Origin: Flavobacterium magnum
GTDB lineage: Bacteria > Bacteroidota > Bacteroidia > Flavobacteriales > Flavobacteriaceae
Length of the DNA stretch: 64,000 bases
Direction of reading: 5' to 3'
Assembly: GCF_003055625.1 (NCBI RefSeq)
Contig: NZ_CP028811.1
Span: 186,001-250,000, forward strand
In this document: in pieces, positions 48,246 to 62,967 of the stretch
Numbering within the stretch: the stretch's first letter is position 1
How the letters are laid out: each line of letters opens with the position of its first letter
Translations under genes and position numbers: made by a program
The notes under the pieces: generated by a model
What the model saw: the letters and a program-made list of their open reading frames with translations, nothing else
Databases searched by the model: none
Told to the model about the DNA's origin: nothing

Positions 48246-51200
48246 TTACCTTTTGATAATCTTGATGGTTTTGAACAGGTTGTCTGCTGAAACCTTTACA
48301 AGATATGTTCCTGCAGCGAGTTGTGACATATCCAGTCTGGTTTCAGCCGAATTGATTTTCCTGTCCAGTACAATCTGGCCGATCATGTTTACTACCTGCA
48401 CGTGGCTGATGTCGCGTGTGTAGGAAATAGTCACGAAATCGGCGACCGGGTTCGGATAGACATTCAGTGCATCTGATTCGAGTTGCTCCACTTCGAGACA
48501 GGCGCCCGTGGTCACGGTAACCGCCAGTCTCACATCGCTGTCACAGCTGCCATCATTCTGGGAGGCATAATATGTCGTTCCCGAAACGAGTGGTGTGCTG
48601 TCTGCAACGAGGTTTCCGCCGGTTGCAGTATCATACCAGCTTATATCCGTACCGTTTGTCACCAATTGGCTTACCGTTTGTCCGGTACAAAAAGTCTGAT
48701 TGCTGCTTCCCGTTGGTGCGGCCACGATATTCACTGTTGCAGTAACAGGGGTACGCACCGATGTACAATCCCCATTTATCGCCTCGGCATAGAACGTAGT
48801 CGTAGCGCTGAGGCTGCCGGTTTGAAACAGGCTGCCGGTTGCCAGCGGTGTGCCGCCGGTTGGAGCATCATACCAGTTTACCGTCCCTGCGCCAGCATTG
48901 GCTTCAAGCATTACGTCTCCGCTACCGCAACGTGTGCCGGGAACAGTTGAAATGATTGTTGGAATCGCATTGATTGCAGCGATTACCGCAGTCCTTGCGG
49001 AAGTACAGTTGCCATTGTCCACCTCAACATAATACGTAGTCGTGGTGCTGATCGACGGTGTTACAAAGGATGTTCCGGTACCCAATACAGCACCTCCGGA
49101 AGCAACACTGTACCAATTCAGCGTTCCTGCACCAGTGGCACCAAGGGTCACTGTACCCGATCCGCAACGCTCACCAGGAACTGTTGCAGTGACTGACGGA
49201 ATGGCGTTCACCGAAGCGGTTACTGCCGTCCGCGCGGAGGTACAGGTTCCGTTTGAAACCTCAGCATAATACGTCGTGTCGGCAGTGATTGGCGGTGTTG
49301 TAAAGTTCTCACCTGTTGCCAAAACTGTTCCGCCTGCCGGTACATCATACCAGCTTATCGTACCGGCGCTTGCAGTTGCCGTTAGTGTCGCTGTACCGCC
49401 TCCACAAACTGCTCCGGGGGTCGTTACAACGATTTGTGGAATGTCGTTCACTGTCGCAGTAACTGCTGTCCTTGCAGAATTACATCCGGTGGCCCTGGCT
49501 TCAACGTAATATGTAGTTGTAGCAGTGATCACCGGCGTGGTGAAGCTTGCTCCTGTTGCCAAAAGCGAACCGCCTGTGGGCAGGGCATACCACCGTAGTG
49601 TGCCGGCACTTGACACGGCGTTAAGTGTTACCGTACCCGCGCCGCAACGGGCTGCAGGCGTAACCGAAGTCACGGATGGTGTTACATTGACCGTAGCGAC
49701 CACTGCAATACGCGAAGAAGTGCAGCTGCCATTCGTCGCCTCGACATAGTAGGTCGTCGATGCGGTGATGGAAGGCGTTATAAAATCTGTTCCTGTGCCT
49801 AAGATACTGCCACCTGAAGCAACTCCATACCAATTTAATATACCGGAATCCGAGGTGGCCTGCAATGTGACACTGCCGGAATCACAACGGCTCGCCGGGG
49901 TGGTCGACGTGACCAGTGGTGTCGCATTCACGGTGGCTGTTACCGCTGTCCTTGTTGAATTACAGGTTCCGTTTGAAGCCTCTACGTAATAGGTTGTAGT
50001 ATTGCTGATGGCTGGCGTTACAAACGAGGTGCCTGTTCCCAATACTGATCCGCCCGACGGGAGATTATACCAATTTAAGGTACCTGAACTTGCTGTGGCA
50101 CCTAAAGTCACAGGTCCTGAATCGCAACGGCTCGCCGGTGTAGTTGATGCCACCGTTGGGGAAACATTGACAGTGGCCAATACGGCTACCCTTGGTGAGA
50201 TGCAGCTTCCATTCACTGCTTCAGCATAGAAATTTGTATCCGTGCTGATGGATGGGGTGGCAAAAGACGTGCCTGTACCCAATACACTTCCTCCCGTAGA
50301 AACGTTGTACCAATTAATCGTTCCGGCAGTGGCCGTCGCGCCCAAAGTGACTGACCCGTTACCGCAACGGCTTCCCGGTACAGTGGCGCTGACAGCTGGT
50401 GTCGCATTCACCGTTGCGGTTACAGCCGTCCTTGGTGAAATACAGCTTCCGCTGGTCGCTTCCACATAATAGGTTGTCGTAGCGCTGAGGTTTGGCGTTG
50501 TGAAATTATTGCCTGTGCCTAACGGACTTCCTCCGTTTGCGACGTCATACCAATTCAGGGTGCCGGCACTGGCTGTGGCGCTTAATGTCAGCACACCCGC
50601 ATCACAGCGGCTTGCCGGTACCGTAGTATTGATTGTCGGCATGGTGCTGATGGTTGCTGTTACCGGAGTCCTTGCAGAGGAGCAGCTACCGTTGACAGCC
50701 TCTACGTAATAAGTGGTTGTGGCGGCAATATTCGGCGTAGCGAATCCTGTTCCGGAACCTAAGATTGTTCCTCCGACAGCAACGCCATACCAGTTCAATG
50801 TTCCTGCGCTTGCCGTGGCGCCAAGTGTCACGCTACCAGTCCCGCAACGGCCCGCAGGCGTTGTGGTTGTTACTGAGGGCGTAGTGGTCACTGTCGCAAT
50901 CACGGGAACACGTGTGGATATGCAGCTTCCATTCGCAGTCTCGACATAATATGTAGTCGTGCTGCTCAGTACAGGTGTTATGAAATTGGTTCCCGTTCCT
51001 ACTGCACTTCCGCCGGAAGGCACATCAAACCAACTGATATTTCCTGCGCTTGCGGTGGCACTTAAAGTGACCGTACCTGCATCACATCTGCCGGAAGGCG
51101 TTGTACCCGTAATGGCAGGTGACGGACTTGCTGTTGCTAAAACGGCAGTCCTTGCGGAAGAACAGCTTCCGTTTGTAGCTTCAACATAGAAATTAGTATT

Positions 51201-52556
51201 GCTGCTGATTGATGGCGTTACAAAAGAAGTTCCCGTTCCCAATACAGCTCCTCCTGACGGAACGCTGTACCAGTTTAAGGTTCCGGAACTGGCCGTGGCT
51301 GCCAAGGTGACGCTTCCCGCATCGCAACGGCTGCCCGGTGTTACAGAAGTGACTGTTGGCGCACTATTGACAGTAGCTAAAACAGCTGTCCTGGCCGAAA
51401 CGCAGCTTCCGTTGGTGGCCTGAACATAGTAAGTCGTGTTGCCACTGATGGATGGTGTTGCAAACGAGGTTCCTGTTCCTATGGCACTGCCTCCGCTTGC
51501 CACATCGAACCAGCTGAGTGTCCCGGCGCTAGCGGTTGCATTTAAGGTTACAGAACCTGTCCCGCAACGTGAACCGGGAGTTGTGGTGGCCACAGTTGGC
51601 GTGCTATTCACTGTAGCGATCACAGGCGTACGCGCAGAGACACAGCTTCCGCTTGCCGCTTCTACATAGAATGTGGTGGTCGCGCTGATGATCCCCGTTG
51701 GGAAGAACGGCCCTGTACCGAGTATCGGACCACCCGATGGCACGTTGTACCATCTCAGCACACCGGCGCTGGCAGTAGCCTGAAGGTTGACCACACCCGT
51801 ATCACAACGGGATCCCGGCGTGGTGGATGCTACAGTGGGTACTGCAGTTACGGTGATGTAGCCGGTAGCGGTTTTTGTATCGCTCCCGTTGTAATTGGTA
51901 GCGGTTAAGGTCACAGCGTAAATTCCGGGCGTATTGTATACCACGGAAGGATGCTGTACGGTTGAAGTAGCCGGCGTACCGCCTGCAAAGGTCCAGCTCC
52001 ATACGAACGGGATATTTGTGGAGGTATCGGTAAAGTCTATCGAACCACCTACACAGGTTGCCAAAGCAGAAGCAGAAAAGTCGGCAACCGGAGGTGTAAC
52101 GGGGCAACTCCCTATCACATCCATGGCAGAACCGTCATCGCTGCCACCGAAGTAGGCATAGAACTGGTTCGGGATACCGCAGGAAACGGCGAGAAGGTCA
52201 TCTACGTGGGCGCTGTCATTGTCTCCGCCCATGTAGGCAAAAAACGATGGCGGCGTCCCGCATGCAGTGGCGCTGAGCTCTTCCACGCCGGCACTGTCAT
52301 TGTCTCCGCCCATATAGGCAAAGAACGACGGCGGCGGTGCGCTGCAGCTTGTATTCATCAATACGTCAACTGTTACATTGTCATCGGTGCTCCCGAAGTA
52401 CGCATAAAAATGCGCGGGCACCGGACACGAAGTCATCCCAAACTGGTCGGCAGCAGCAGCAGCGGCATCGCCTCCATGATATTGGGCCTGAGATTTTGTA
52501 CCAGCCAAAATAAATGTAACGAATACAATTATGTAGTATTTAATTGCTTTCATCAT
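48246..52556 (-). CDS. Large repeat adhesin with PKD and Ig-like repeats and a T9SS sorting domain
   Basis: The protein has 1436 residues. After a signal peptide (to about 25) come four tandem repeats of about 27 residues beginning with Cys and containing FYAYFGG/FFAYMGG plus DNDSA (44-151). A PKD domain (155-238, VWSWTFAGGTPATSTVQHPSVVY) follows, then thirteen Ig-like repeats of about 80 residues (239-1278) and one divergent repeat. The end is a type A T9SS signal (LNVYPNPVADFVTISY to FKTIKIIKR). It is exported to the cell surface by T9SS, probably as an adhesin. It follows the SUMF1-fold gene by 71 bp and has its own terminator. Confidence 0.9.
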   Translation of the reverse strand: MMKAIKYYIIVFVTFILAGTKSQAQYHGGDAAAAAADQFGMTSCPVPAHFYAYFGSTDDNVTVDVLMNTSCSAPPPSFFAYMGGDNDSAGVEELSATACGTPPSFFAYMGGDNDSAHVDDLLAVSCGIPNQFYAYFGGSDDGSAMDVIGSCPVTPPVADFSASALATCVGGSIDFTDTSTNIPFVWSWTFAGGTPATSTVQHPSVVYNTPGIYAVTLTATNYNGSDTKTATGYITVTAVPTVASTTPGSRCDTGVVNLQATASAGVLRWYNVPSGGPILGTGPFFPTGIISATTTFYVEAASGSCVSARTPVIATVNSTPTVATTTPGSRCGTGSVTLNATASAGTLSWFDVASGGSAIGTGTSFATPSISGNTTYYVQATNGSCVSARTAVLATVNSAPTVTSVTPGSRCDAGSVTLAATASSGTLNWYSVPSGGAVLGTGTSFVTPSISSNTNFYVEATNGSCSSARTAVLATASPSPAITGTTPSGRCDAGTVTLSATASAGNISWFDVPSGGSAVGTGTNFITPVLSSTTTYYVETANGSCISTRVPVIATVTTTPSVTTTTPAGRCGTGSVTLGATASAGTLNWYGVAVGGTILGSGTGFATPNIAATTTYYVEAVNGSCSSARTPVTATISTMPTINTTVPASRCDAGVLTLSATASAGTLNWYDVANGGSPLGTGNNFTTPNLSATTTYYVEATSGSCISPRTAVTATVNATPAVSATVPGSRCGNGSVTLGATATAGTINWYNVSTGGSVLGTGTSFATPSISTDTNFYAEAVNGSCISPRVAVLATVNVSPTVASTTPASRCDSGPVTLGATASSGTLNWYNLPSGGSVLGTGTSFVTPAISNTTTYYVEASNGTCNSTRTAVTATVNATPLVTSTTPASRCDSGSVTLQATSDSGILNWYGVASGGSILGTGTDFITPSITASTTYYVEATNGSCTSSRIAVVATVNVTPSVTSVTPAARCGAGTVTLNAVSSAGTLRWYALPTGGSLLATGASFTTPVITATTTYYVEARATGCNSARTAVTATVNDIPQIVVTTPGAVCGGGTATLTATASAGTISWYDVPAGGTVLATGENFTTPPITADTTYYAEVSNGTCTSARTAVTASVNAIPSVTATVPGERCGSGTVTLGATGAGTLNWYSVASGGAVLGTGTSFVTPSISTTTTYYVEVDNGNCTSARTAVIAAINAIPTIISTVPGTRCGSGDVMLEANAGAGTVNWYDAPTGGTPLATGSLFQTGSLSATTTFYAEAINGDCTSVRTPVTATVNIVAAPTGSSNQTFCTGQTVSQLVTNGTDISWYDTATGGNLVADSTPLVSGTTYYASQNDGSCDSDVRLAVTVTTGACLEVEQLESDALNVYPNPVADFVTISYTRDISHVQVVNMIGQIVLDRKINSAETRLDMSQLAAGTYLVKVSADNLFKTIKIIKR
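48723..51842 (-). repeat. Thirteen tandem 240-bp units in the adhesin gene
   Basis: Each unit encodes about 80 residues of the pattern P-x-V-x-x-T-x-P-x-x-RC, VTL-x-ATASAGTLNWY, GGS-x-LGTG, TP-x-I, TTYYVEA-x-NGSC, SARTAVTATVN. Every unit keeps two Cys (after R and after NGS), likely a disulfide per domain. Unit 12 is one residue shorter. Confidence 0.9.
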
Positions 52557-52627: not shown

Positions 52628-54082
52628 TTACCTCACACCCCTTCCACCGAAAGTTGGATATCTTGACGCATCTACCGTGGTTACGCTGGCCCTGTCAGAA
52701 GTGCGTACCCTGCCGGCAACATCAATATAGCTTCCTCCACGGAAACCTGTACCGGCAGCGGTTGTCGGTGAAGGCCAGGTTGATTGGTTTGCGTCTCCGT
52801 TGGCGGCGATGGTGCCGTCACCGTTTGTACCGTTAAAAGTAACGCCGGCTGCAGTTGTGTTTACAACATGCTCCCAAACGTTTCCGCCCATTTCCATAGC
52901 GCCATAGTAAGCCGCGCCCGCAGAGGATCTTCCTGAAGTTCCTGAAGCGAAAGCCCCTACCCTTATTGGTCCGTAAGCAGGATTGGCACTGCCTACGCCA
53001 TAGGTACACATTCCATTAGCTACAGGAGTATAGGTTTCATTCGACATATAATCGTTGATAAGTCCGCCGAGGGTGCTGTACACCTGTGTCAGGTCAGTCG
53101 TTCCCCATGGGTATTCACCGGCCACGCGGGGCATACTGCCACGGCATACTTTTTCATATTCCAGTTCAGTCATCGGGCGTAGCGCGGCCCAGTCCAGGTA
53201 AGCGGTCAAATCGCCCCAGCTTAAATTGTTGGCAACAATGCTTTGTCCGTCATCGCTATTGTTTTCAACTCCTGTAGAAGCATCGCAGGCATATACGGCG
53301 GGAATCGCAGCATTATTACCCGGGGTTGAAATGATGATACCGTTACGGAAACCGAAACTTCCGAACATGACATACGTGCCGGCAGCACTGATCGGGTCGC
53401 TGTAGGTATGTGCCTTTTGCTGATCATAAGTCAGGGAATTCAGGTATTCTACGTATTGCAATTGCGAAATCTCATTCTTCATGCAGTAGAAGGAATTGTA
53501 TCCGGTAGGATAAGTATTAGGAATTGTCGATGAGCCGCCACCTATGGCTGCTGCTGAAATTCCCGAGGCCTGAGAAGTGGAGTTTACAGTAATGCTGTTG
53601 AATGTCGACGCGCTCGTGCCATCGCCCAGTTCGAAGTTACCCTGTGGCACATTGACCATTTCAATCCCAAAAACCTTATAGTTATAAGTTCCGGCCGGAA
53701 TGTTCATTTTCAAAGTGACCTGTGTGGGCGCAATCGTCCCGCCTCCCAAGGCACTTCTTCTAACGAATACGCCTTTTCCATCGGCGACAGGGTCAACCTG
53801 AAGCGGAGAGGAGGTCGAATGGTCAGACCCTACAGTGCTGAGTCCGGCGTGTGCCCAGATGCGCGTATTGCAATCCTGGTATTTGATGAACACCCATACG
53901 GCGTCCCAATTGGCCGGAGCCACGTTCGCATTCCAGCTGTTTTCCCAGCTGATGGTAAAAGTAATGTTCGATCCGGTCACGGAAGTCCCGGTAATCTGTA
54001 CGTTATTTGCGCGGGATATTCCGAACGCAAACAAGAGCATAAAGCTCAGGGTCATTTTTGAAAATAAAGTCTTGGTTTTCAT
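52628..54082 (-). CDS. Secreted SUMF1/formylglycine-generating-enzyme-fold protein
   Basis: The protein has 484 residues with a signal peptide ending near ISRANN. Residues 26-135 form a beta-rich domain. Residues about 137-484 carry the SUMF1 fold: YCMKNEISQLQYVEYLNSL, LSWGDLTAYLDWAALRPMTELEYEKVCRG, AYYGAMEMGGNVWEHVV, GFRGGSY and the final FGGRGVR. The active-site Cys pair of true formylglycine generators is not evident, so a structural or binding role is more likely. It is preceded by one of the three palindromic promoters and followed by the adhesin gene, which is probably co-transcribed. Confidence 0.85.
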   Translation of the reverse strand: MKTKTLFSKMTLSFMLLFAFGISRANNVQITGTSVTGSNITFTISWENSWNANVAPANWDAVWVFIKYQDCNTRIWAHAGLSTVGSDHSTSSPLQVDPVADGKGVFVRRSALGGGTIAPTQVTLKMNIPAGTYNYKVFGIEMVNVPQGNFELGDGTSASTFNSITVNSTSQASGISAAAIGGGSSTIPNTYPTGYNSFYCMKNEISQLQYVEYLNSLTYDQQKAHTYSDPISAAGTYVMFGSFGFRNGIIISTPGNNAAIPAVYACDASTGVENNSDDGQSIVANNLSWGDLTAYLDWAALRPMTELEYEKVCRGSMPRVAGEYPWGTTDLTQVYSTLGGLINDYMSNETYTPVANGMCTYGVGSANPAYGPIRVGAFASGTSGRSSAGAAYYGAMEMGGNVWEHVVNTTAAGVTFNGTNGDGTIAANGDANQSTWPSPTTAAGTGFRGGSYIDVAGRVRTSDRASVTTVDASRYPTFGGRGVR

Positions 54083-54108
54083 CTTATTTCTTTTTTAAAG
54101 TTATAAGA

Positions 54109-54159
54109 CAAAACTAGGCGACGGGGTTATGCGACAAAATACGTACTATTTCGTATTTT
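54109..54159 (-). promoter_or_regulatory. Palindromic promoter P1 (SUMF1/adhesin)
   Basis: On the minus strand AAAATACG, 8 bp, CGTATTTT (54136-54159), then TAGTTTTG (54109-54116). The inner AATACG half-site (as read on the plus strand) ends 21 bp from the -7 box; the -33 TTTG overlaps the palindrome. It shares layout with P2 and P3. Confidence 0.75.
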
Positions 54160-54196
54160 TATTCGCCGGGCCATCCTGACCTATCCCGACGGCCGC

Positions 54197-54841
54197 TCAG
54201 ATCAGTTTGTTGTTTTTCGCTTTTTCGACCGCTTCGAGCTTGTTGTGCACCTGGAGTTTGGTGTAGATGTTTTCGATGTGCTTCCGCACGGTACTGGGAG
54301 ACAAGATCAGGTTTTCCGCGATATTGTTGTAATTCAGGCCTTTGCTTAATTGTTCCAACACTTCGATTTCACGTTGCGAAAGCTTAATTTCCTCCGTGTT
54401 TGCTTTTTCGAAAGGAACCGGATCGCGCAACAATTTCAGGGTCTTGAACGCAATCGACGGATGCATCGCTGCGCCACCGTTCATCGTTTCTATAATGCCC
54501 TGGTATAAATCTTTCGGGTTGATTTCCTTGAGCAGGTAACCGTCTGCCCCGGCCTTGATGGCATTGAAGATGTTCTCGTCGTTGTCAAATACGGTCAGCA
54601 TGATGATCCTGATGTGCGGGTATTTTGACTTGATGAGCACGGTCGCCTCGATGCCGTTCATTTCGGGCATTTCAATATCCATGAGGATCAGGTCGATATT
54701 GCGGTTTGCCTGCAGTTTCTCGAGTAAATCCCTGCCATCGCAGGCTACGCAGCGTACGGCGAATTCGTCAAAAAATGACAGCTTTTCCTGTACTGTCCTG
54801 ATCAGGAATGAATTGTCGTCGGCTATGGCTATCTTAATCAT
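54197..54841 (-). CDS. LuxR/NarL-family response regulator 1
   Basis: The protein has 214 residues. The receiver domain has acidic pocket ADD (8-9), phospho-acceptor Asp55 in LILMDIEMP, and a conserved Thr and Lys (MLTVFDN; LLKEINP). The C-terminal LuxR helix-turn-helix is LSQREIEVLEQLSKGLNYNNIAENLILSPSTVRKHIENIY. It lies 1 bp after the histidine kinase 1 gene, its obvious partner. Its recognition region is nearly identical to that of response regulator 2, so both may bind the AATACG-N8-CGTATT palindrome. Confidence 0.95.
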   Translation of the reverse strand: MIKIAIADDNSFLIRTVQEKLSFFDEFAVRCVACDGRDLLEKLQANRNIDLILMDIEMPEMNGIEATVLIKSKYPHIRIIMLTVFDNDENIFNAIKAGADGYLLKEINPKDLYQGIIETMNGGAAMHPSIAFKTLKLLRDPVPFEKANTEEIKLSQREIEVLEQLSKGLNYNNIAENLILSPSTVRKHIENIYTKLQVHNKLEAVEKAKNNKLI

Positions 54842-54842
54842 G

Positions 54843-56783
54843 CTATGTGTTTAATACGTCTTTACTGATGTGAAGGACAATCCGGGTACCAGCTCCCGGC
54901 GCCGAGTCGATTGTGGCAGTGCCCCCGATGCTCTTAATGCGTTTTTTCATGTTGTGTAAACCGTTCCCGTTGACGACCGATGCGATGTCAAAACCGGATC
55001 CGTTGTCAGTGATACCGATGTCAATCCCATCGTTATCCTCTGTAATGCGCACCACAATTTCGGTCGCCTGTGCATACTTGATGGCATTGTTCACGGCTTC
55101 CTGTATTGTGCGGTAAATGTTCATCCCAACAACTGATGAGAACCCGAGGTGGCTGAGCTTTTCATCGATTTCAAAACGAAATTGGATGTTTTCTGCGGCG
55201 AGTCTGGCTTTTTCGATGAAATTCATAATACGCATGTGCAGGTCTTCGAATGTAATCGCATCACTGTTCATCGCCCAGATGGTATCGCGCAGTTCAATGA
55301 TCGTGGATTGGGTAAATCCACTGATGTTGTCGAGTTTTCCGTTAAGTTTTGAGTCTTTCAGGTCAAAAGCAAATTTGAGATTGTCGACGGACGAAATGAT
55401 AAAGGTAAGCTGCGCCCCGATGTTGTCGTGCAAATCACGTGAAATACTGAGCCGCTGTTCCTGCAGCTTGTTCTGAGTTTCAATTTTTGCAATGGCTTTT
55501 TCTAACCGGTGTTCCTGCTCCTGCTGCCGGTTGCGTAGCTTTTGCTGTCGATACACGAGCGCTCCGCCTGCCACGGTCGTCACCACCAAAAAACCTAAAA
55601 TGATCAGCCAAAGATTGCGTTGCCTGGCTTCGACTTCCCTGAGCAGCAACAATTTTTCCTTTTTTTCGGTCTGGTATTTGGCATCCAGTTCGAAAATAGC
55701 CTTGGTTTTTTCCTTTCTGAAAAGGCTGTCTTTCCCGATGCAATACAATCTGGCATGTTCGTAGGCTTGTTGGAAACTGCCGGTTTTGGCATAGGCTTTC
55801 GCGAGATTGTCATTGGCCATCGTCTCGACCAGTTCCGCCTCTGATTTCTTCGCTGATGTCCTGGCTTTCTGAGACACGGCGATGCTTTCTGAAAACCGCT
55901 TCTGCTTGAGCAGGCACTGGGCGTATGCGTTTCCGGTGTTGGCGACTTCAAACCAGTTCTCGAATTTTTCGTGCAGCGCAATCGACTCCTTGTAGTAGGT
56001 GTCGGCGACGTCAAACCGGTGCAGGCTGTCATACACCATCGCCAAATTGCCCAGCGGGTAAGCGACATAACGGTCATACCCTAACTTTTGATAGCCTTTC
56101 CGGGCCATTTCGGAGTATTTCAAAGACTCTTTATAATGTGCGAAATTAATCAGGATTGAACCGAGGTTGCCCGAGGAAACGGTCATTCCAAACGCATCCT
56201 TTGCCTTTACGTAAAAATCATAGGCCTTGCGGTAATAGGTCAGGGCCTTTTTATAATCTTCATGGGTTTTGTACACAATCCCGATATTGGTGTACGTCAT
56301 CGCCTGCTTGGACAAATCATTCTTTTTGTCGTAATAGTACAATGCCCTGAAATAATTCCTGAGTGCCTGCTCGAAGTCTCCTTTGGTATCAAATGCGATG
56401 CCGATGTTATTGTAAGAATCGGCGATCCCAAGCGAATCCTTAATCCGGATCCTGGATCCCAGCGCCTTACGATGGTAGATGATGGCTGAATCGAGTTCGC
56501 TGCGGTATTGAAAAGTATTGGCAATTGCATTGTAGGCCATCCCCAGGCACGGCTCGCTTTTAATCCTGCGCGCCTGCGCAAGTGCCTGTTTCCCATATGA
56601 CAACGCCTGATCAAGGTCGCTGTAACTGAATTCATCGGACAGGGCGCACAGGGTATGGAATCTCTTCTGCCCGGTTTGTTTCGCAAGGACATGCTTCAGG
56701 CTGTCGGTTTTGGAAGTCTGGGGATTTTGCGGAAACGCTCCTATTGCCGTAAAGCACAGCAGCAGTACGATGAATGACCTCAT
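54843..56783 (-). CDS. TPR sensor histidine kinase 1 (HisKA_3/NarX-type)
   Basis: The protein has 646 residues. A signal peptide (about 1-18) is followed by periplasmic TPR repeats (about 40-350), a single membrane segment (390-411), a coiled coil, a HisKA_3 dimerisation domain with His452 in SRDLHDNIGAQLTF, and an HATPase domain (EAVNNAIKYA N-box; DNGSGFD; GNGLHNMKKR). The design suggests sensing a periplasmic protein or peptide partner. It is followed by response regulator 1 and preceded by a small membrane coiled-coil protein 61 bp upstream. Confidence 0.95.
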   Translation of the reverse strand: MRSFIVLLLCFTAIGAFPQNPQTSKTDSLKHVLAKQTGQKRFHTLCALSDEFSYSDLDQALSYGKQALAQARRIKSEPCLGMAYNAIANTFQYRSELDSAIIYHRKALGSRIRIKDSLGIADSYNNIGIAFDTKGDFEQALRNYFRALYYYDKKNDLSKQAMTYTNIGIVYKTHEDYKKALTYYRKAYDFYVKAKDAFGMTVSSGNLGSILINFAHYKESLKYSEMARKGYQKLGYDRYVAYPLGNLAMVYDSLHRFDVADTYYKESIALHEKFENWFEVANTGNAYAQCLLKQKRFSESIAVSQKARTSAKKSEAELVETMANDNLAKAYAKTGSFQQAYEHARLYCIGKDSLFRKEKTKAIFELDAKYQTEKKEKLLLLREVEARQRNLWLIILGFLVVTTVAGGALVYRQQKLRNRQQEQEHRLEKAIAKIETQNKLQEQRLSISRDLHDNIGAQLTFIISSVDNLKFAFDLKDSKLNGKLDNISGFTQSTIIELRDTIWAMNSDAITFEDLHMRIMNFIEKARLAAENIQFRFEIDEKLSHLGFSSVVGMNIYRTIQEAVNNAIKYAQATEIVVRITEDNDGIDIGITDNGSGFDIASVVNGNGLHNMKKRIKSIGGTATIDSAPGAGTRIVLHISKDVLNT

Positions 56784-56844
56784 TTGAATTGTTTTGGCTA
56801 TCCCATAAAAGTATTAAAAAAATGTTAACATGGCGCTCGGGACC

Positions 56845-57129
56845 TTATTCGATGAGATTGTTTTTAGCCAGCGTGTCAATGAGTTGGTATTGCAGTGACA
56901 GGATTTCCTCGCCAATACGCTTCTGCGAGGTGCGCAGCGTTTCCTTGAGGTCATCGGCCATCTGAACGCGCCCCTGCTGTGTCGCCTGGTTTTCAAGCAA
57001 TGTCACGATCATGGATTCGTACGCTGCGGTCTTGAGTTTGTGGGCCTTTTTTGATTTCCTGAAATCGGCCGACACAATGGCAATCAGCGCGAGATTGACC
57101 AGCAGCAGGATAAGTAGGAATGGGGTCAT
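56845..57129 (-). CDS. Small membrane coiled-coil protein A (paralogue of 62573-62872)
   Basis: The protein has 94 residues: an N-terminal membrane segment (TPFLLILLLVNLALIAIVSA), a basic stretch (RKSKKAHKLK) and a long amphipathic helix ending RVQMADDLKETLRTSQKRIG and LQYQLIDTLAKNNLI. It aligns along its whole length with the 99-residue protein encoded at 62573-62872, and both stand immediately upstream of a TPR histidine kinase. The family is not known to me. A role as accessory subunit of the kinase is inferred from this repeated arrangement. Confidence 0.75.
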   Translation of the reverse strand: MTPFLLILLLVNLALIAIVSADFRKSKKAHKLKTAAYESMIVTLLENQATQQGRVQMADDLKETLRTSQKRIGEEILSLQYQLIDTLAKNNLIE

Positions 57130-57151
57130 AGGAAGGTTAGCATCAGTGAGG

Positions 57152-57203
57152 AAAAAATGTCCTTTTCAAAGCAGGATGTTACTCCGTTCGAAAAGGACAA
57201 AAT
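57152..57203 (-). terminator. Terminator or attenuator after the DUF6252 gene
   Basis: TGTCCTTTTC (57190-57199 on the minus strand) and GAAAAGGACA (57158-57167) pair perfectly around a 22-nt loop, followed by six T. It lies between the DUF6252 lipoprotein gene and the small protein A gene, so it could set a lower level of the downstream kinase and regulator. Confidence 0.65.
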
Positions 57204-57275
57204 CACACAAAACAAGTAGCTTGATCCGATACCGGCCGCGGCCATACAGGCGTGGGCTTTTTCGGAAAAATTATT

Positions 57276-57800
57276 TTAGAATTCCAGGTTAAAGGCACCA
57301 TTGGTGATTTCCTTGGTGTCGATGGCATTGTCCTGGTTGGTACCTGTAAAGTGGAAAGTCCCTACCAGTTTAGCATCGGTAAGCTCGGAAATCGTAACCG
57401 AACCTTTAACGGCACCACCTTCTGTTGGCGCCACATACACCACTGAATTTGCAGGGTCCTGCATGTTGAGTGCCGTATATGAACCTACGATTGAAATGCT
57501 GTTATCGCCACCAATATCATAGGTCCCGGCCTGCGAAACCCCGTTCATAATCAGGCTGATTGATTTTCCCGAAGAATCTGCACCGACCAGGCTAATGGTC
57601 GTCATGTTGCCAGATGTTACGCGCTGCGCACTGGTAGCCATCGCCATTGATGTAAAGCCCGAACCTGCAATTTTTGCCGTTACGGTCCCAAGGGAAGCGC
57701 TACCGCCACCACCGCCGCCATCACTGTCGCTGCTGCAGGATAGTGCCAGGAACATTACGGCAACCAATGTCATTTTTGAGATCATTTTGAGTGTTTTCAT
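57276..57800 (-). CDS. DUF6252-like lipoprotein
   Basis: The protein has 174 residues. Lipobox FLALSC (Cys near 22) is followed by SSDSDGGGGGGSA, an acidic and Gly-rich surface-export-type tether. The beta-rich body shows GTVTAKIAGSGFTSM, KSISLIMNGVSQAGTYDIGG and a terminal KEITNGAFNLEF, the pattern of DUF6252 lipoproteins. The gene follows palindromic promoter P2. Its position in the signalling island suggests that it is a target, or an extracellular partner, of the kinases; no function is known. Confidence 0.8.
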   Translation of the reverse strand: MKTLKMISKMTLVAVMFLALSCSSDSDGGGGGGSASLGTVTAKIAGSGFTSMAMATSAQRVTSGNMTTISLVGADSSGKSISLIMNGVSQAGTYDIGGDNSISIVGSYTALNMQDPANSVVYVAPTEGGAVKGSVTISELTDAKLVGTFHFTGTNQDNAIDTKEITNGAFNLEF

Positions 57801-57829
57801 GATAAAATAAATTTAAGTTAGTTATACGC

Positions 57830-57880
57830 CAAAATTGCGCCTATCATGAAAAGTAGACAATACGGCATTTGTCGTATTTT
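57830..57880 (-). promoter_or_regulatory. Palindromic promoter P2 (DUF6252 lipoprotein)
   Basis: On the minus strand AAAATACG, 8 bp, CGTATTGT (57857-57880), then CAATTTTG (57830-57837), a -7 box with one mismatch. The 21-bp gap between AATACG core and -7 box equals that of P1 and P3. Confidence 0.75.
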
Positions 57881-57918
57881 ATGGCCTGAACCTGGTTGCC
57901 GGACCCTGAAACCGCAGA

Positions 57919-58566
57919 CTATATGAGCTTATTGTTCTTCGCTTTCTGGATGGCCTCCAGCTTATTATGCACCTGAAGTTTTGCATAAATATTCTCGACG
58001 TGCTTGCGTACTGTACCCAGCGAAAGAATCAGGTTATCGGCAATATTGTGGTACTTCAGGCCTTTACTGAGTTGCTCGAGGACTTCGATTTCGCGCACGG
58101 TGAGCTTGATGTCCTCGCTATCCGAAGGGACGTCAAACGCAATCGGGTTGCGGAAGAGCTTCAGGGTCTTCAATGCAATCGATGGGGTCATCGTGGCGCC
58201 GCCATTGAGGGTCTCCATAATCCCCTGGTTCAGGTCGGCGGGGGTGACGTCCTTCAACAGGTAACCGTCGGCGCCGGCCTTAATCGACCTAAAGATGTTC
58301 TCATCATTATCAAAAATAGTAAGCATGATGATCTTGATGTGCGGGTATTTACTCTTTACGATGCCGGTGGCCTCGATGCCGTCCATTTTTGGCATTTCGA
58401 TATCCATCAGGATCAGGTCGATGTTGTGGTTGTTCTCGAGTTTTTCCAACAACTCGATGCCATTCACGGCCGTGTACCTGCACACGAGGTTCTCAAAGAA
58501 GGAAAGCTTTTCAGCCACCGCCTTTTGCAAAAAGATATTGTCGTCGACTATCACTATTTTAACCAT
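57919..58566 (-). CDS. LuxR/NarL-family response regulator 2
   Basis: The protein has 215 residues. The receiver has VDD (8-9) and phospho-acceptor Asp55 in LILMDIEMPKMDG. The helix-turn-helix is LTVREIEVLEQLSKGLKYHNIADNLILSLGTVRKHVENIY. It differs from response regulator 1 by few residues in the DNA-binding half and ends in the same KAKNNKLI. It is downstream of two tandem kinases (HK2 and HK3), which probably share it. Confidence 0.95.
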   Translation of the reverse strand: MVKIVIVDDNIFLQKAVAEKLSFFENLVCRYTAVNGIELLEKLENNHNIDLILMDIEMPKMDGIEATGIVKSKYPHIKIIMLTIFDNDENIFRSIKAGADGYLLKDVTPADLNQGIMETLNGGATMTPSIALKTLKLFRNPIAFDVPSDSEDIKLTVREIEVLEQLSKGLKYHNIADNLILSLGTVRKHVENIYAKLQVHNKLEAIQKAKNNKLI

Positions 58567-58576
58567 AACCTTAATT

Positions 58577-60514
58577 TTAATTGTTTTTGTTTTTAAGTGA
58601 AATGCTGATTTTTGTGCCTTCGGAGAGCGCCGTCTTGATCGAAATGGTCCCGCCGATATCCTCTATGCGTTTGCGCATGTTGTGCAGCCCATTCCCGTTG
58701 CCACTGTTTTCGGGGTCAAAACCGGCACCGTTGTCATTGATCGTGATTGATATTGTTCCGTCATCTGCGGAAGCGTAAATACCAATATCCTCCGCATCCG
58801 AGTATTTGATGGCATTATTTACCGCTTCCTGTATGGTCCGGTAAATGTTCATGCCTTCGATCGACGTGAGCGCTACCGCCTGCAGCGCGTCATCGATATC
58901 AAATGTGAAATGGATGTCTTCCCTGGCCATTTTCGCCTTTTCGATGAAGTTCAGGATACGCACTTTCAAATCTTCAAAGGTGATGGCGCTGTTGTTCATC
59001 GCCCAGATGGTATCGCGTAGTTCGACAATGGTCGATTTCGTAAAATCGCTGATGCTGCGCAGCTTGTCATTGAGCCTGATGTTCTGGATGTCAAACCCGT
59101 GCTTGATGTTGTCTACCGACGAAATAATAAAGGTCAGCTGCGCCCCGATATTGTCATGAAGGTCACGCGAAATGCTGAGCCGCTGCTCCTGGAGTTTGTT
59201 CTGTGTTTCGATTTGGGCAATGGCCGATTTGAGCCGGAATTCCTGTTGCTGCTGCCTGTTCTTCAATTTCTGTTGCCTGTAGAGCAGCAATGAGATGATG
59301 ATGACCAAAAACGTCAGCACGGAAATCCCAACCAGCAGCATATTCTTGCGGTGCGTTTCGGCACGCTGTTCCGCGAGCAGCTTTTCTTTTTTGGCCGTTT
59401 GGTATTTGGTCTCGAGCTCTGCGGTCTGCCGTAACATGCTCAGCCGCGTGAGGTGCTCACTGAGTTTTTTGTTCACTTCCTGGTAATAGAGCACGCTGTC
59501 CGGCTGTTTGAGGTAGGCGAAGGTCGGGATCATCAAATCGAGCGTGTAGTACAGGCTTTCATCTTTCTTCTCGCGCAGGAATTTGTCCCTGATTTCTGTT
59601 AGCAATGCGAGTGCCTCCTTGTATTTCCCGGTTTTGAGGTAACTGCGCGCGACACTGATCTTGAGGTTGTCCTGATCGTGGGCGGAGTTGACAACCTGGC
59701 CAACCTGTCTCGACTTTTCGTACATCACCGCGGCGCTGGCTTCGTTTTTTGCACGCGCCCGAAGCAGCCCAATGTTCTGGTACAGCACCGAGATTGCCCG
59801 GTTATTACCCGACAGCCTGCAATTCCTGAGGCTTTTCTCAAAAGCGACCCTGGCTTTGACCGTATCGTTGAGCCCGGAATACGCCTTGCCGAGATTTCCG
59901 TAGAATTCGCAGAGGCGGTCCGGCAGCTGCTGCTGTTCTGCGTAAGCGATGGCAGGATTCAGGTAGGCCAACGCTTTTTTGTAGTCGTGCAGGTTCACCA
60001 TGAGCATGCCGATATTGCTTTTGGCTATCGCGGTGCTTTTCAGGTCTTTTACGCTCTCAAAGTAGGTCAACGCTTCAAGGAATGCCTTCATTGATTGGGT
60101 GTACTCCTGGCGGTCGCGGTATACATTGCCCAGGTTGTTATTGATCTTTGCGATACCCGCAGCATCCCTGAGGCGTTTGCGGATGGCATAGGAACGCAGG
60201 TAACTCTGCTGGGCACGCGTGAGGTCTCCGTTGTTGAAGTACACCGAACCGATGTCACTGTAAATCTGCCCGAGCAACGTGGAATCCGCTAATTTCAGGG
60301 CTTCGGATTCGGCCTTTTTCCCATATGCCAAAGCCGAATCAACGGAAACGGTCGAATAATACCATGTCAGGTCCGAATAAATGGTGGCGGTCTTCCGCGC
60401 GCCGGGATTGTCCTTCAGCGCAGCTTTCAGGCCGGCGATCATCTGCTGCGTATTCTGGGCATTACAAGGCAGCAGGCAGCACAGCAGGCAAATGGAGAGG
60501 TATTTTTTAAGCAT
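58577..60514 (-). CDS. TPR sensor histidine kinase 2 (HisKA_3 type)
   Basis: The protein has 645 residues from the ATG at 60514, whose signal peptide (MLKKYLSICLLCCLLPCNAQ) decides the start. Periplasmic TPR repeats are followed by a membrane segment (LLVGISVLTFLVIIISLLLYRQQ), the phospho-acceptor His in SRDLHDNIGAQLTF, and an ATPase domain (EAVNNAIKYS; NGNGLHNMRKRI). It overlaps the upstream kinase 3 gene by 8 bp, so both are translationally coupled. Response regulator 2 follows after 10 bp. No small protein precedes it. Confidence 0.94.
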   Translation of the reverse strand: MLKKYLSICLLCCLLPCNAQNTQQMIAGLKAALKDNPGARKTATIYSDLTWYYSTVSVDSALAYGKKAESEALKLADSTLLGQIYSDIGSVYFNNGDLTRAQQSYLRSYAIRKRLRDAAGIAKINNNLGNVYRDRQEYTQSMKAFLEALTYFESVKDLKSTAIAKSNIGMLMVNLHDYKKALAYLNPAIAYAEQQQLPDRLCEFYGNLGKAYSGLNDTVKARVAFEKSLRNCRLSGNNRAISVLYQNIGLLRARAKNEASAAVMYEKSRQVGQVVNSAHDQDNLKISVARSYLKTGKYKEALALLTEIRDKFLREKKDESLYYTLDLMIPTFAYLKQPDSVLYYQEVNKKLSEHLTRLSMLRQTAELETKYQTAKKEKLLAEQRAETHRKNMLLVGISVLTFLVIIISLLLYRQQKLKNRQQQQEFRLKSAIAQIETQNKLQEQRLSISRDLHDNIGAQLTFIISSVDNIKHGFDIQNIRLNDKLRSISDFTKSTIVELRDTIWAMNNSAITFEDLKVRILNFIEKAKMAREDIHFTFDIDDALQAVALTSIEGMNIYRTIQEAVNNAIKYSDAEDIGIYASADDGTISITINDNGAGFDPENSGNGNGLHNMRKRIEDIGGTISIKTALSEGTKISISLKNKNN

Positions 60515-62540
60515 AATTGTTGTTGTTTTGAAAAGAAATCCGGACCGTAGTCCCTTCATTCCTTACAGATTGTATCGTACACTCCGCCCCTATTTCCTTC
60601 ATACGTTTCTTCATGTTGCCCAAACCATTGCCGCGGTCATTGTCAGACGTATCAAAACCGACGCCGTTGTCGCGGATTTCAATGGTAATCCTGCCCCGTT
60701 CCGGTTTGGCTTCTATAACAATTTTCGAAGGTGCGGCATATTTGATGGCATTATTTACCGCTTCCTGGATGGTGCGGTAGATGTTGATGCCCTGCAGGGA
60801 GGACAGTTTGACGTCGAGGATGGATGCATCCAGGTGGAAGGCGTAGTCGATACTGCTTTTGGCTGTTTTCGCTTTCTCGAGAAAATTGAAGATCCGCGAG
60901 CGCAATTCCTCAAAACTGATTTCGGCATGGTTCATCGCCCAGATTGTGTCGCGCAGTTCCAGGATGGTCGATTTGGTAAAGTCGCTGATGCTGTCGAGCT
61001 TGTCGCTGAGTTTGGTCTGCTCGAGGCTGAACCCGAACTTGACATTGTCAACCGACGAGATAATAAAGGTCAGCTGTGCGCCGATGTTGTCGTGCAGGTC
61101 GCGTGAAATGCTCAGCCGTTGTTCCTGGAGTTTGTTCTGGGTTTCAATCTGTGCGATGGCGGCCTTGAGCTGGAATTCCTTTTCGCGTTGTATGCCTTTG
61201 AGCCTTTGCTGACGGTAAACCAGGTACGCCAATATCACCACAAAGAACACCAGCGCGGCGAGCATGATAATCGTGGTATTCTTCTTTCTCGACTCGGATG
61301 ATTTCTGTAGCAGCGCCACTTTATGCTGCGCCAATTCCTTTTCCTTGATGGCAGTTTCATATTTCACCTGGGCATCCTTAAAGTATTTCTGCTTTTCACT
61401 GCCCAGGATGACGTCTTTTTGCGTCACAAAAAGCTTGTGGTTTTCCAACGCTTTTTTAAAGTCACCGGCCTGTTCATAAGCCTGCGACAGTGCTTCGTAA
61501 ATTTCAGCGATATCATCCCTGCGGTCGCCGAGCCGCGCTTCTCTTAACAGCGTGTTAAGCAAGGCCACCGCCTTTGCCGGCTGCGCATCATGCAGGTAAA
61601 TCCTAGCCAGGTTAGCCTTTACGGAATACATCTCGTTGGAGTTTTTTTTGTACTTGCTGCCCAGCGCCATCGCTTCAAAAACCAGCCTTTTGGCCTCAGA
61701 CATATCGTTTTGAAGCACCTTGAGCGTGATACCCGGCTTCAATATATCAAACTTTACGCTTTCGAGATGGGTTGAATCTGCGAGCGCGATGCCCTTACGG
61801 TAGTATTTTTCTGCCTCCGCATATTGGTGTGTATCGGTCAGCAGCGACGTCAGGTGTGCGTATGAGAGGAGCAGTCCATGGGGATTGTCGCGCTTACCCC
61901 CGAGTGCAATTTTCATCGCGGCGCGTGCCATATCCTGTGCTTTCCTGTTGTCGCCAATGGTCTCATACAATTCGGAGATGTTATTGAAAATTTCGACCTT
62001 AATGTACCGGTATTGTGACGTATCGACATGCTTTGCGGCGTCAAGCAGGTTCTTGATGGCAAGGTCGTACTGGCCCTGCACCTGATAAATGTTGGCTATA
62101 TTGTTTTTGGAAATCACCACCCCGATCCCGTCTTTCTGCTTTGCAAAAACCGAGTCGGCACGCCGGAAATACTTCATCGCCCCGACGAAATCTTCCTTAT
62201 TGAAGCAGGTTTCGGCGTACTGGCTGTAGGCGCACGGCAGTTGTCCGTCCACCTTGTTGTCTATGCAGTATTTTTCGGCCTTGCGAAAATCGCGGTAGGC
62301 ACCGGCATAATCCCGGATGAAATTCTTCTGCTCGATCAATTTGACCAGATACGCTGCCTTATGGTATTTGTCGTGCCGCTGCTCCGCATTCTTAATCCCA
62401 TTGAGAATGTGCTGCAATGCCCTTTCGGGATTTTTTTCCCGGTCGCGCTCGTACCAGATGAATACACTGTCAGGATCATGGTTCTGGGAGAAAGCCATAA
62501 TCGGCAACAGCAGGAAAAGCAGCAGTGGGATTTTATTCAT
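60507..62540 (-). CDS. TPR sensor histidine kinase 3 (HisKA_3 type)
   Basis: The protein has 677 residues with a signal peptide (to about FSQ, residue 19). Periplasmic TPR repeats (about 30-400) are followed by a membrane segment (TIIMLAALVFFVVILAYLVYRQQ), a HisKA_3 domain with the His in SRDLHDNIGAQLTF, and an HATPase (EAVNNAIKYA; RDNGVGFD; GNGLGNMKKR). The kinase core is very similar to HK1 and HK2, whereas the TPR sensor part has diverged, so the three probably read different ligands. It is the second gene after promoter P3, 32 bp downstream of small protein B. Confidence 0.94.
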   Translation of the reverse strand: MNKIPLLLFLLLPIMAFSQNHDPDSVFIWYERDREKNPERALQHILNGIKNAEQRHDKYHKAAYLVKLIEQKNFIRDYAGAYRDFRKAEKYCIDNKVDGQLPCAYSQYAETCFNKEDFVGAMKYFRRADSVFAKQKDGIGVVISKNNIANIYQVQGQYDLAIKNLLDAAKHVDTSQYRYIKVEIFNNISELYETIGDNRKAQDMARAAMKIALGGKRDNPHGLLLSYAHLTSLLTDTHQYAEAEKYYRKGIALADSTHLESVKFDILKPGITLKVLQNDMSEAKRLVFEAMALGSKYKKNSNEMYSVKANLARIYLHDAQPAKAVALLNTLLREARLGDRRDDIAEIYEALSQAYEQAGDFKKALENHKLFVTQKDVILGSEKQKYFKDAQVKYETAIKEKELAQHKVALLQKSSESRKKNTTIIMLAALVFFVVILAYLVYRQQRLKGIQREKEFQLKAAIAQIETQNKLQEQRLSISRDLHDNIGAQLTFIISSVDNVKFGFSLEQTKLSDKLDSISDFTKSTILELRDTIWAMNHAEISFEELRSRIFNFLEKAKTAKSSIDYAFHLDASILDVKLSSLQGINIYRTIQEAVNNAIKYAAPSKIVIEAKPERGRITIEIRDNGVGFDTSDNDRGNGLGNMKKRMKEIGAECTIQSVRNEGTTVRISFQNNNNYA

Positions 62541-62572
62541 GAGTAGTCGTGCATTCCATAAAAATAGGAAAT

Positions 62573-62872
62573 TTAGCCTTCGGGTTTATTTTTAAGCAAA
62601 TCGTTTTTTGACAGGAGATCAAACAATTCATAATTGAGTGTAAAGATGTCCTCATTAAGCACAACGCGGCTTTTTTTAAGACGCTCGTTCAGGTCGTCTG
62701 ACAGTTTTACCTGCCCCGACTGCGCAAGCTGCTTCCTGGTAATCTGGACGATGATGGCCTCGAGCGCAGCGATTTTTTCGCTAAATTTCTTCTTTTCCCG
62801 ATGCGAATATACGGCGAGGTAAATCATCGCAACAAACAACAGCAAGATCACAGCGGTCAGTAAAATAATCAT
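62573..62872 (-). CDS. Small membrane coiled-coil protein B (paralogue of 56845-57129)
   Basis: The protein has 99 residues: an N-terminal membrane helix (IILLTAVILLLFVAMIYLAV), a basic stretch (SHREKKKFSEK) and an amphipathic helix ending QVKLSDDLNERLKKSRVV and LNYELFDLLSKNDLL. The similarity to small protein A covers the membrane helix, spacing and C-terminal helix. It is the first gene after palindromic promoter P3 and directly precedes kinase 3. The function is unknown; a kinase accessory role is inferred. Confidence 0.75.
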   Translation of the reverse strand: MIILLTAVILLLFVAMIYLAVYSHREKKKFSEKIAALEAIIVQITRKQLAQSGQVKLSDDLNERLKKSRVVLNEDIFTLNYELFDLLSKNDLLKNKPEG

Positions 62873-62916
62873 ATCAAAAGGGATTAGTGGATTTGTTTTC
62901 GATTTAAGGCCGTTAA

Positions 62917-62967
62917 CAAATGTCCCGTTTCCCCCGCCGAAAAGAAATACGCAGTTATTCGTATTTT
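62917..62967 (-). promoter_or_regulatory. Palindromic promoter P3 (small protein B, HK3, HK2, RR2)
   Basis: On the minus strand AAAATACG, 8 bp, CGTATTT (62945-62967), then GACATTTG (62917-62924), a -7 box with one mismatch. The gap from core to -7 box is again 21 bp. The predicted leader to the ATG at 62872 is about 40 nt. Confidence 0.72.

Follow-up and report, generated by a model that had tools for sequence, protein, structure and literature searches.

The lux box of the quorum-sensing regulator LuxR is a 20-bp inverted repeat that lies over the upstream promoter element, with its centre at about -42.5, and serves class II or ambidextrous activation. To our knowledge, activator-dependent promoters are little described in Bacteroidota. 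In a transcription start site (TSS) map of Flavobacterium psychrophilum (PMC9723704), the sigma-A element TAnnTTTG is placed at -12 to -5, and a study of the PhoPR regulon of Riemerella anatipestifer, obtained by DNA affinity purification sequencing (PMC9603813), describes a self-regulating two-component regulon in Flavobacteriales. A 64,000-nt stretch of Flavobacterium magnum (NZ_CP028811.1, bases 186001-250000; the genome is a single 3,464,207-bp contig), here called the window, carries three copies of the palindrome AATACG-N8-CGTATT, each at one fixed distance from a TAnnTTTG-like box, in a cluster encoding two LuxR/NarL-type response regulators (RR1 and RR2) and three histidine kinases (HK1 to HK3). 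Judged from the sequence, it is highly probable that RR1 and RR2 bind these palindromes and activate their own operons together with genes for surface proteins and lipoproteins.

The initial annotation of the window had reported three intergenic copies with the same distal half-site, a TAnnTTTG-like box exactly 21 bp from each and no further full copy, and all of this was borne out with exact positions. On the minus strand the distal half-site reads AAAATACG at all three sites and the box begins exactly 21 bp downstream of the palindrome, with CAATTTTG and GACATTTG each departing from TAnnTTTG by one base. The three palindromes are intergenic, site 3 starting 3 bp past the stop of the upstream gene, and a search of the 64,000 nt gave no fourth exact copy. 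The predicted starts below follow from the box position in PMC9723704 and give leaders of 22, 25 and 40 nt, respectively.

54138..54157, minus strand: palindromic site 1, AATACGAAATAGTACGTATT, 5' of the SUMF1-fold gene and 39 bp past the RR1 stop codon
54109..54116, minus strand: -7-like box TAGTTTTG of site 1, 21 bp off, predicted TSS near 54104
57859..57878, minus strand: palindromic site 2, AATACGACAAATGCCGTATT, 40 bp past the RR2 stop codon, upstream of the genes for the DUF6252 lipoprotein, small protein A, HK1 and RR1
57830..57837, minus strand: -7-like box CAATTTTG of site 2, 21 bp off, predicted TSS near 57825
62946..62965, minus strand: palindromic site 3, AATACGAATAACTGCGTATT, 5' of the genes for small protein B, HK3, HK2 and RR2
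62917..62924, minus strand: -7-like box GACATTTG of site 3, 21 bp off, predicted TSS near 62912

Dinucleotide shuffles of the window held on average 0.01 exact copies and 0/100 shuffles reached three. At ≤ 2 mismatches there were six matches against 2.46 expected, and six was reached by 7/100 shuffles; the count at this threshold is unremarkable, and it is the exact copies alone that are exceptional.

A genome-wide search, proposed as a check in the initial annotation, revealed a clear excess over chance. Seven exact palindromes occur in 3.46 Mb, where 0.25 are expected from the base composition of the window (Poisson tail 1e-8), and at ≤ 1 mismatch there are 25 genomic sites compared with two for the reversed pattern. 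A 14.3-kb region around RR1 and RR2 (240138-254466) contains five of the seven exact copies: the three in the window and two just to its right. All five have AAAATACG and a box at 21 bp, that of the site at 252748 being CAGTTTCG at 252719, with two departures from TAnnTTTG. Elsewhere, the site at 1910709 (AAAATACG, box at 21 bp) precedes an outer-membrane barrel gene, and the site at 2648071 (palindrome with one mismatch, AAAATACG, box at 21 bp) precedes the gene for a 1467-aa secreted protein. The latter (L022 1586-5989) contains a long near-identical repeat and a MopE-type metal-binding motif. In total, six of the seven exact copies, plus one copy with a single mismatch, are intergenic and have a box at 21 bp. 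A search with the longer pattern ending in NAnnTTTG (≤ 3 mismatches) gave 14 genomic matches, compared with two for the control; seven were good and four of the remaining seven are AATACC variants.

The 21-bp distance is rigidly kept in relatives. The regulator, with RR1 (54197-54841) as the query, was present at E ≤ 1e-50 in 54 of 199 genomes sampled from the genus, and a first set of 40 stretches around it was drawn from 36 of these 54. Together with the window and the adjoining own-genome stretch L016, these loci contain 109 palindromes (≤ 1 mismatch) and 86 box matches at offset 21 (box ≤ 1 mismatch, both orientations scored), against 0 to 14 at every other offset from 0 to 44. Only 2/118 site/orientation combinations with a box at 21 bp (≤ 2 mismatches) fell within an open frame. 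A second sample was picked by the regulator alone and comprises the best 79 distinct loci of at least 552 stretches, at 70 to 93% identity, from Flavobacterium, Winogradskyella, Psychroserpens, Bizionia, Algibacter, Mariniflexile, Gilvibacter, Gelidibacter and other genera. It holds 167 palindromes (≤ 1 mismatch; 81 exact), 143 of them with a box at 21 bp when read in one or both orientations; other offsets gave 0 to 16 matches (16 at offset 34, and 11 at 8, 13 and 35). At least one palindrome with a box at 21 bp is found in 69/79 loci.

In the 79 loci, 119 permuted half-sites gave a mean of 0.18 exact copies and a maximum of four, compared with 81 for AATACG. When inverted repeats with an 8-bp gap were scanned in 3.2 Mb, ATACG gave 200 box matches at 21 bp around 249 sites, against a mean of 6.3 and a highest value of 21 at other offsets. 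The gap between ATACG arms was 8 bp in 220 cases and no other gap between 4 and 15 bp was seen more than three times, repeats between loci being kept in the count. Regulator loci and such sites are over-represented in this sequence, so its counts are no genome-wide estimate. That the palindromes arose by chance or belong to a dispersed repeat was conceivable while just three copies were in view, but the shuffles and permuted half-sites fall so far below the observed counts that its probability is negligible. The dispersed repeat is rejected in particular because conservation is confined to the palindrome, the box and a few flanking bases.

A profile was built from 87 sites (box ≤ 1 mismatch) in the window, the own-genome stretch L016, stretches L018 and L022 and the 40 loci, of which 66 remained without near copies. 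It reads A-A-AATACG-N8-CGTATT, then xAnnTTTG at 21 bp. Beyond palindrome and box only a few flanking bases are conserved, the conserved A-run being on the distal side. The bases at inner positions 8 and 13 complement each other, as C/G or A/T, in 51/66 sites, compared with 28.5 expected. The first base of the spacer is G or T in 65/66 sites, and its fourth base is T-rich; no other strong element is found in the 21 bp.

This profile bears on a possible role of the palindromes as intrinsic terminators for the operons that precede them. Two of the three sites in the window stand 39 to 40 bp past a regulator stop codon, the predicted RNA folds of the three reach -6.8, -4.6 and -8.5 kcal/mol (z -2.2, -0.9 and -4.0), and T-runs follow some of the sites in relatives. 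However, there is no general T-run, G being the first spacer base in 32/66 sites, the conserved A-run is distal, and termination would leave the rigid distance to a promoter box unexplained. A terminator scan omits the sites, but this is no evidence because its rule of three G-C pairs excludes the stem. Mainly on the spacing and the absence of a general T-run, the terminator explanation is rejected as very improbable.

Presence of the motif follows presence of the regulator. The full pattern (≤ 1 mismatch) occurs in 46/199 genomes of the genus and its reversed control in none. It was found in 37/54 genomes with the regulator compared with 9/145 without it (Fisher p 8e-19; 2e-18 when the genome of the window is left out). 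In a sample of 246 genomes from the order, 21 have the pattern, 23 the regulator and 12 both, which corresponds to 12/23 genomes with the regulator and 9/223 without it (Fisher p 3e-9). Tallied per genus, the order sample gives 7/13 against 5/68 (p 3e-4), pattern and regulator coming from different genomes in one of the seven genera. Position, spacing and conservation of the sites, and their co-occurrence with the regulator, are direct observations, and since the same arrangement stands beside the same regulator genes in relatives, the palindrome is very probably the control site of this signalling system.

The genes of the cluster that lie within the window are as follows.

54197..54841, minus strand: RR1, LuxR/NarL-type response regulator (Pfam Response_reg and GerE)
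54843..56783, minus strand: HK1, histidine kinase with TPR, HisKA_3 and HATPase_c (Pfam), RDLHDNIG H-box
56845..57129, minus strand: small protein A, 94 aa, N-terminus hydrophobic by eye
57276..57800, minus strand: DUF6252 putative lipoprotein, directly behind site 2
57919..58566, minus strand: RR2, LuxR/NarL-type response regulator (Pfam Response_reg and GerE)
58577..60559, minus strand: HK2, histidine kinase with TPR, HisKA_3 and HATPase_c (Pfam), RDLHDNIG box
60507..62540, minus strand: HK3, histidine kinase with TPR, HisKA_3 and HATPase_c (Pfam), RDLHDNIG box
62573..62872, minus strand: small protein B, 99 aa, with relatives also behind a site in other genomes
52628..54082, minus strand: FGE-sulfatase (SUMF1-fold) secreted protein (Pfam), behind site 1
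48246..52556, minus strand: 1436-aa Ig-repeat protein, next after the SUMF1-fold gene, with 14 Ig_7 and a Por_Secre_tail

Both regulators exceed the curated cut-offs for PF00072 and PF00196, the layout of the NarL/FixJ type. Response_reg and GerE are their sole Pfam matches at E 0.001, with no autoinducer-binding domain. The acidic pair, phospho-acceptor Asp, Thr and Lys of the receiver are present in both, as seen by eye in their alignment (DDN near residue 8, LILMDIEM, MLT and LLK), and HisKA_3 with HATPase_c was found in all three kinases, which makes them histidine kinases of the HisKA_3 class. RR1 and RR2 are identical at 152/215 positions overall, at 78/114 in the receiver and at 50/61 in the GerE region. 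The helix-turn-helix regions had been described as almost identical, a statement that stands for the recognition-helix stretch (TVRKH.ENIY.KLQVHNKLEA, nearly the same in both) and is a little strong for the GerE region as a whole. The recognition-helix stretch is near-invariant over 60 distinct family members, mostly T[VI]RKH, with RRH or KKH in a few.

Neither small protein A nor small protein B matched a Pfam family at E 0.001. A second DUF6252 lipoprotein gene of the same cluster (L016 4851-5387) also stands directly behind a copy of the site. The 1436-aa protein contains a PKD domain and a type IX secretion sorting tail besides its Ig_7 repeats.

Conservation at orthologous promoters, another check proposed at the outset, was found in most loci. 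A GSCFA gene is present in 52 of the 79 regulator loci, and in 46 of these a box-bearing site follows within 400 bp in the same direction, often 5 to 10 bp past the end of the GSCFA match; in the 40 loci with L016, 23/28 have the site within 400 bp after this gene. The site after the GSCFA gene is the clearest instance of one corresponding position kept across genera. A GSCFA-family gene and alaS also adjoin the cluster in the F. magnum genome (L016 5545-9520), and alaS is present in 39/79 regulator loci. With operons delimited by a simple gap rule, the regulator's own operon has a site within it or ahead of it in 46/79 loci, and a site falls within 300 nt past the regulator stop in 18/79. An operator that exceeds chance across the genome and is kept at the corresponding promoters of relatives, as observed here, is what marks a regulon.

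The genes behind the sites were tallied for 96 sites with a called gene behind (box ≤ 2 mismatches) in the sequences used for the profile. Most frequent were DUF6252 or lipoprotein-type genes (17, of which 14 match the two DUF6252 proteins of F. magnum), followed by those for kinases (13), small proteins of 91 to 110 aa (13 plus 3, 11 of these 16 matching small protein A or B), relatives of a 127-aa protein (12), a group of 231 to 239 aa (8) and SUMF1-fold proteins (7). Proteins of 784 to 800 aa (5), 159 to 172 aa (5) and 694 to 722 aa (3) were also encoded there; by Pfam, the one tested in each group has a type IX sorting tail, is YbjN-like, or has OmpA and PD40, respectively. The regulator itself was directly behind the site five times and five were single cases. 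These genes fit the autoregulation and control of surface proteins put forward in the initial annotation, an interpretation that the sequences support.

The position of the palindrome suggests how it may act. With the box at -12 to -5, as in PMC9723704, the 20-bp palindrome would span -53 to -34 with its centre at -43.5, which refines an earlier estimate of a centre near -43 at the -33 element to one abutting the -33 region. A box at a fixed 21-bp offset and an operator abutting the -33 region are the geometry of a class II promoter. The palindrome would be the operator of the cluster's own RR1 and RR2, bound by a phosphorylated dimer with one GerE domain per half-site. On the start-site map, the dimer would be centred at about -43.5, beside sigma-A on TAnnTTTG, and the proximal half-site, ending at -34, would substitute for the -33 element; once bound, the regulator would thus attract RNA polymerase in the manner of a class II activator. 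Joint activation would cover the three promoters in the window, the two to its right and no fewer than two elsewhere in the genome, and both kinase/regulator operons would activate themselves (positive autoregulation). Probable targets are the DUF6252 lipoproteins, the SUMF1-fold protein with the Ig-repeat type-IX-secreted protein, a small secreted protein with a BamB-like propeller and the outer-membrane barrel. We infer binding by RR1 and RR2, activation over repression and the existence of a signal.

RR1 and RR2 might instead bind the same sites as repressors, since a dimer over the predicted -53 to -34 could also block polymerase. Repression is nevertheless unlikely. Repressor sites usually accept several positions, whereas contact with polymerase requires a constant distance, such as the 21 bp seen here outside the -7 box. 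In addition, the spacer has no strong element besides its first-base G/T and T-rich fourth base, so the promoters look activator-dependent.

Several observations weigh against control of these sites by RR1 and RR2, or weaken the evidence for it. At the thresholds used, 33/79 regulator loci show no site upstream of or inside the regulator operon and 10/79 have no box-bearing site at all; 17/54 regulator-bearing genomes lack a full-pattern match at ≤ 1 mismatch. Conversely, 9/145 regulator-free genomes have the pattern; three of these (G009, G052 and G163) hold a second LuxR-type lineage, which leaves six others. In F. magnum, the exact copy at 2369917 is embedded in a long open frame, and no box accompanies it. 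At ≤ 3 mismatches, 182/199 genomes of the genus match and controls are common, so that this search is too loose to be informative. The two locus samples have species in common, and some genomes belong to both the genus sample and the order sample. Finally, related species are not independent samples, for which reason the genus-level figure (p 3e-4) is the safer one.

The regulator of the second lineage has a different recognition helix and is 27 to 30% identical to RR1 and RR2, and its two-component operon is flanked by the same palindrome: AATACGTATAAATACGTATT-like sites with a box at 21 bp were found in G076, G163, G382 and G052. The motif is therefore not exclusive to the RR1/RR2 family, and that idea was rejected. 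In L129 (7886-11015), L124 (6757-9993), L132 and L134 the operon is flanked on both sides. Relatives of this lineage are present in 20/199 genomes of the genus, including F. magnum itself (2456804-2457502, locus L144; 54 to 58% identity). The L144 operon encodes small proteins and a relative of the second lineage's kinase.

The sites in the window might then be operators of a different LuxR-type regulator, such as the product of 2456804-2457502, with RR1 and RR2 as bystanders or acting elsewhere. In G382, G163 and G052, where the first family is absent at E 1e-50, AATACGTATAAATACGTATT-like sites spaced 21 bp from a box flank the second lineage, and F. magnum does encode a member. Against this, five of the seven exact copies cluster around RR1 and RR2, and no palindrome (≤ 1 mismatch) occurs within 10 kb of the F. 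magnum second-lineage gene or of the other LuxR-type regulators at 2531643 and 2905881. Presence of the motif tracks the RR1/RR2 family, and the second-lineage sites differ at their inner bases (TATAAATA-like). A different regulator is thus quite unlikely, and control by RR1 and RR2 is preferred. In 16 further second-lineage loci (L144-L159), no AATACG palindrome with a box at 21 bp was found within 5 kb (arms at least 5/6 complementary), nor was such a site found at the F. magnum LuxR-type loci L160 and L161. Variant palindromes do stand beside the second-lineage regulator in some genomes (ATTACG...CGTATT in G203 and G180, AATACC...AGTATT in G184), with none in F. magnum.

A variant, AATACC-N8-GGTATT, was searched for in F. 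magnum, G144, G024 and G205, four genomes picked after box-bearing matches of this kind had appeared. They contain 24 exact copies, and 13 of the 16 with examined surroundings have the box at 21 bp, as do four of five in F. magnum (1406354, 1769770, 1809531 and 2668817; L262, L265, L268 and L249). In the 3.2 Mb scan, ATACC gave 16 box matches at 21 bp around 21 sites, compared with a mean of 0.6 and a highest value of two at other offsets; the only other half-site with a hint of this was ATAAG (four matches around ten sites). T-runs follow some AATACC copies. These sites are possibly a second half-site class for another LuxR-type regulator, or partly terminators.

Taken together, the sites of the second lineage and the AATACC variant suggest one architecture read by several LuxR-type regulators. 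There is about an even chance that Flavobacteriales share a general promoter code, in which a 20-bp LuxR-type operator and the sigma-A -7 box are kept exactly 21 bp apart. The operator's half-sites would be of the ATAC[G/C] type and 8 bp apart; distantly related regulators would differ in half-site and inner bases, polymerase fixing the geometry and the regulator the letters. If this code holds, regulons could be read directly from genomes.

With a regulator family, its operator and the precise distance between operator and sigma-A box kept across genera, TPR-kinase regulons would become predictable from sequence. The sites also offer a ready test bed for how activators work at TAnnTTTG promoters, and uncharacterized surface proteins (DUF6252, small proteins A and B) gain a common control system.

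The system belongs to a class already known, the two-component regulons that act through a palindromic activator site. A literature search, with most subscription papers outside its reach, gave no description of this operator or of its rigid placement and no paper on the motif or the regulator family. The nearest solved full-length structures to RR1 and RR2 are those of VraR, ChrA, NarL and DesR. As in NarL/FixJ systems, a receiver is joined to GerE and the partner kinases are of the HisKA_3 class, but in contrast to the systems named the kinases here carry TPR arrays. The 20-bp AATACG-N8-CGTATT differs from NarL heptamers and VraR sites. It is also unlike the PhoPR motif of PMC9603813, which is ArcA-like with a core of TTTAACA. 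The box 21 bp from the palindrome is the Bacteroidota sigma-A element of PMC9723704, to which the fixed upstream palindrome is an addition: the main text of that paper does not contain 'palindrom', 'LuxR' or 'response regulator'. The site differs from the lux box in its sequence, in its Bacteroidota sigma-A promoter with TAnnTTTG and in its phosphorylation-type regulators, which have no Pfam autoinducer-binding match, and resembles it in being a 20-bp inverted repeat, here with a centre predicted at -43.5.

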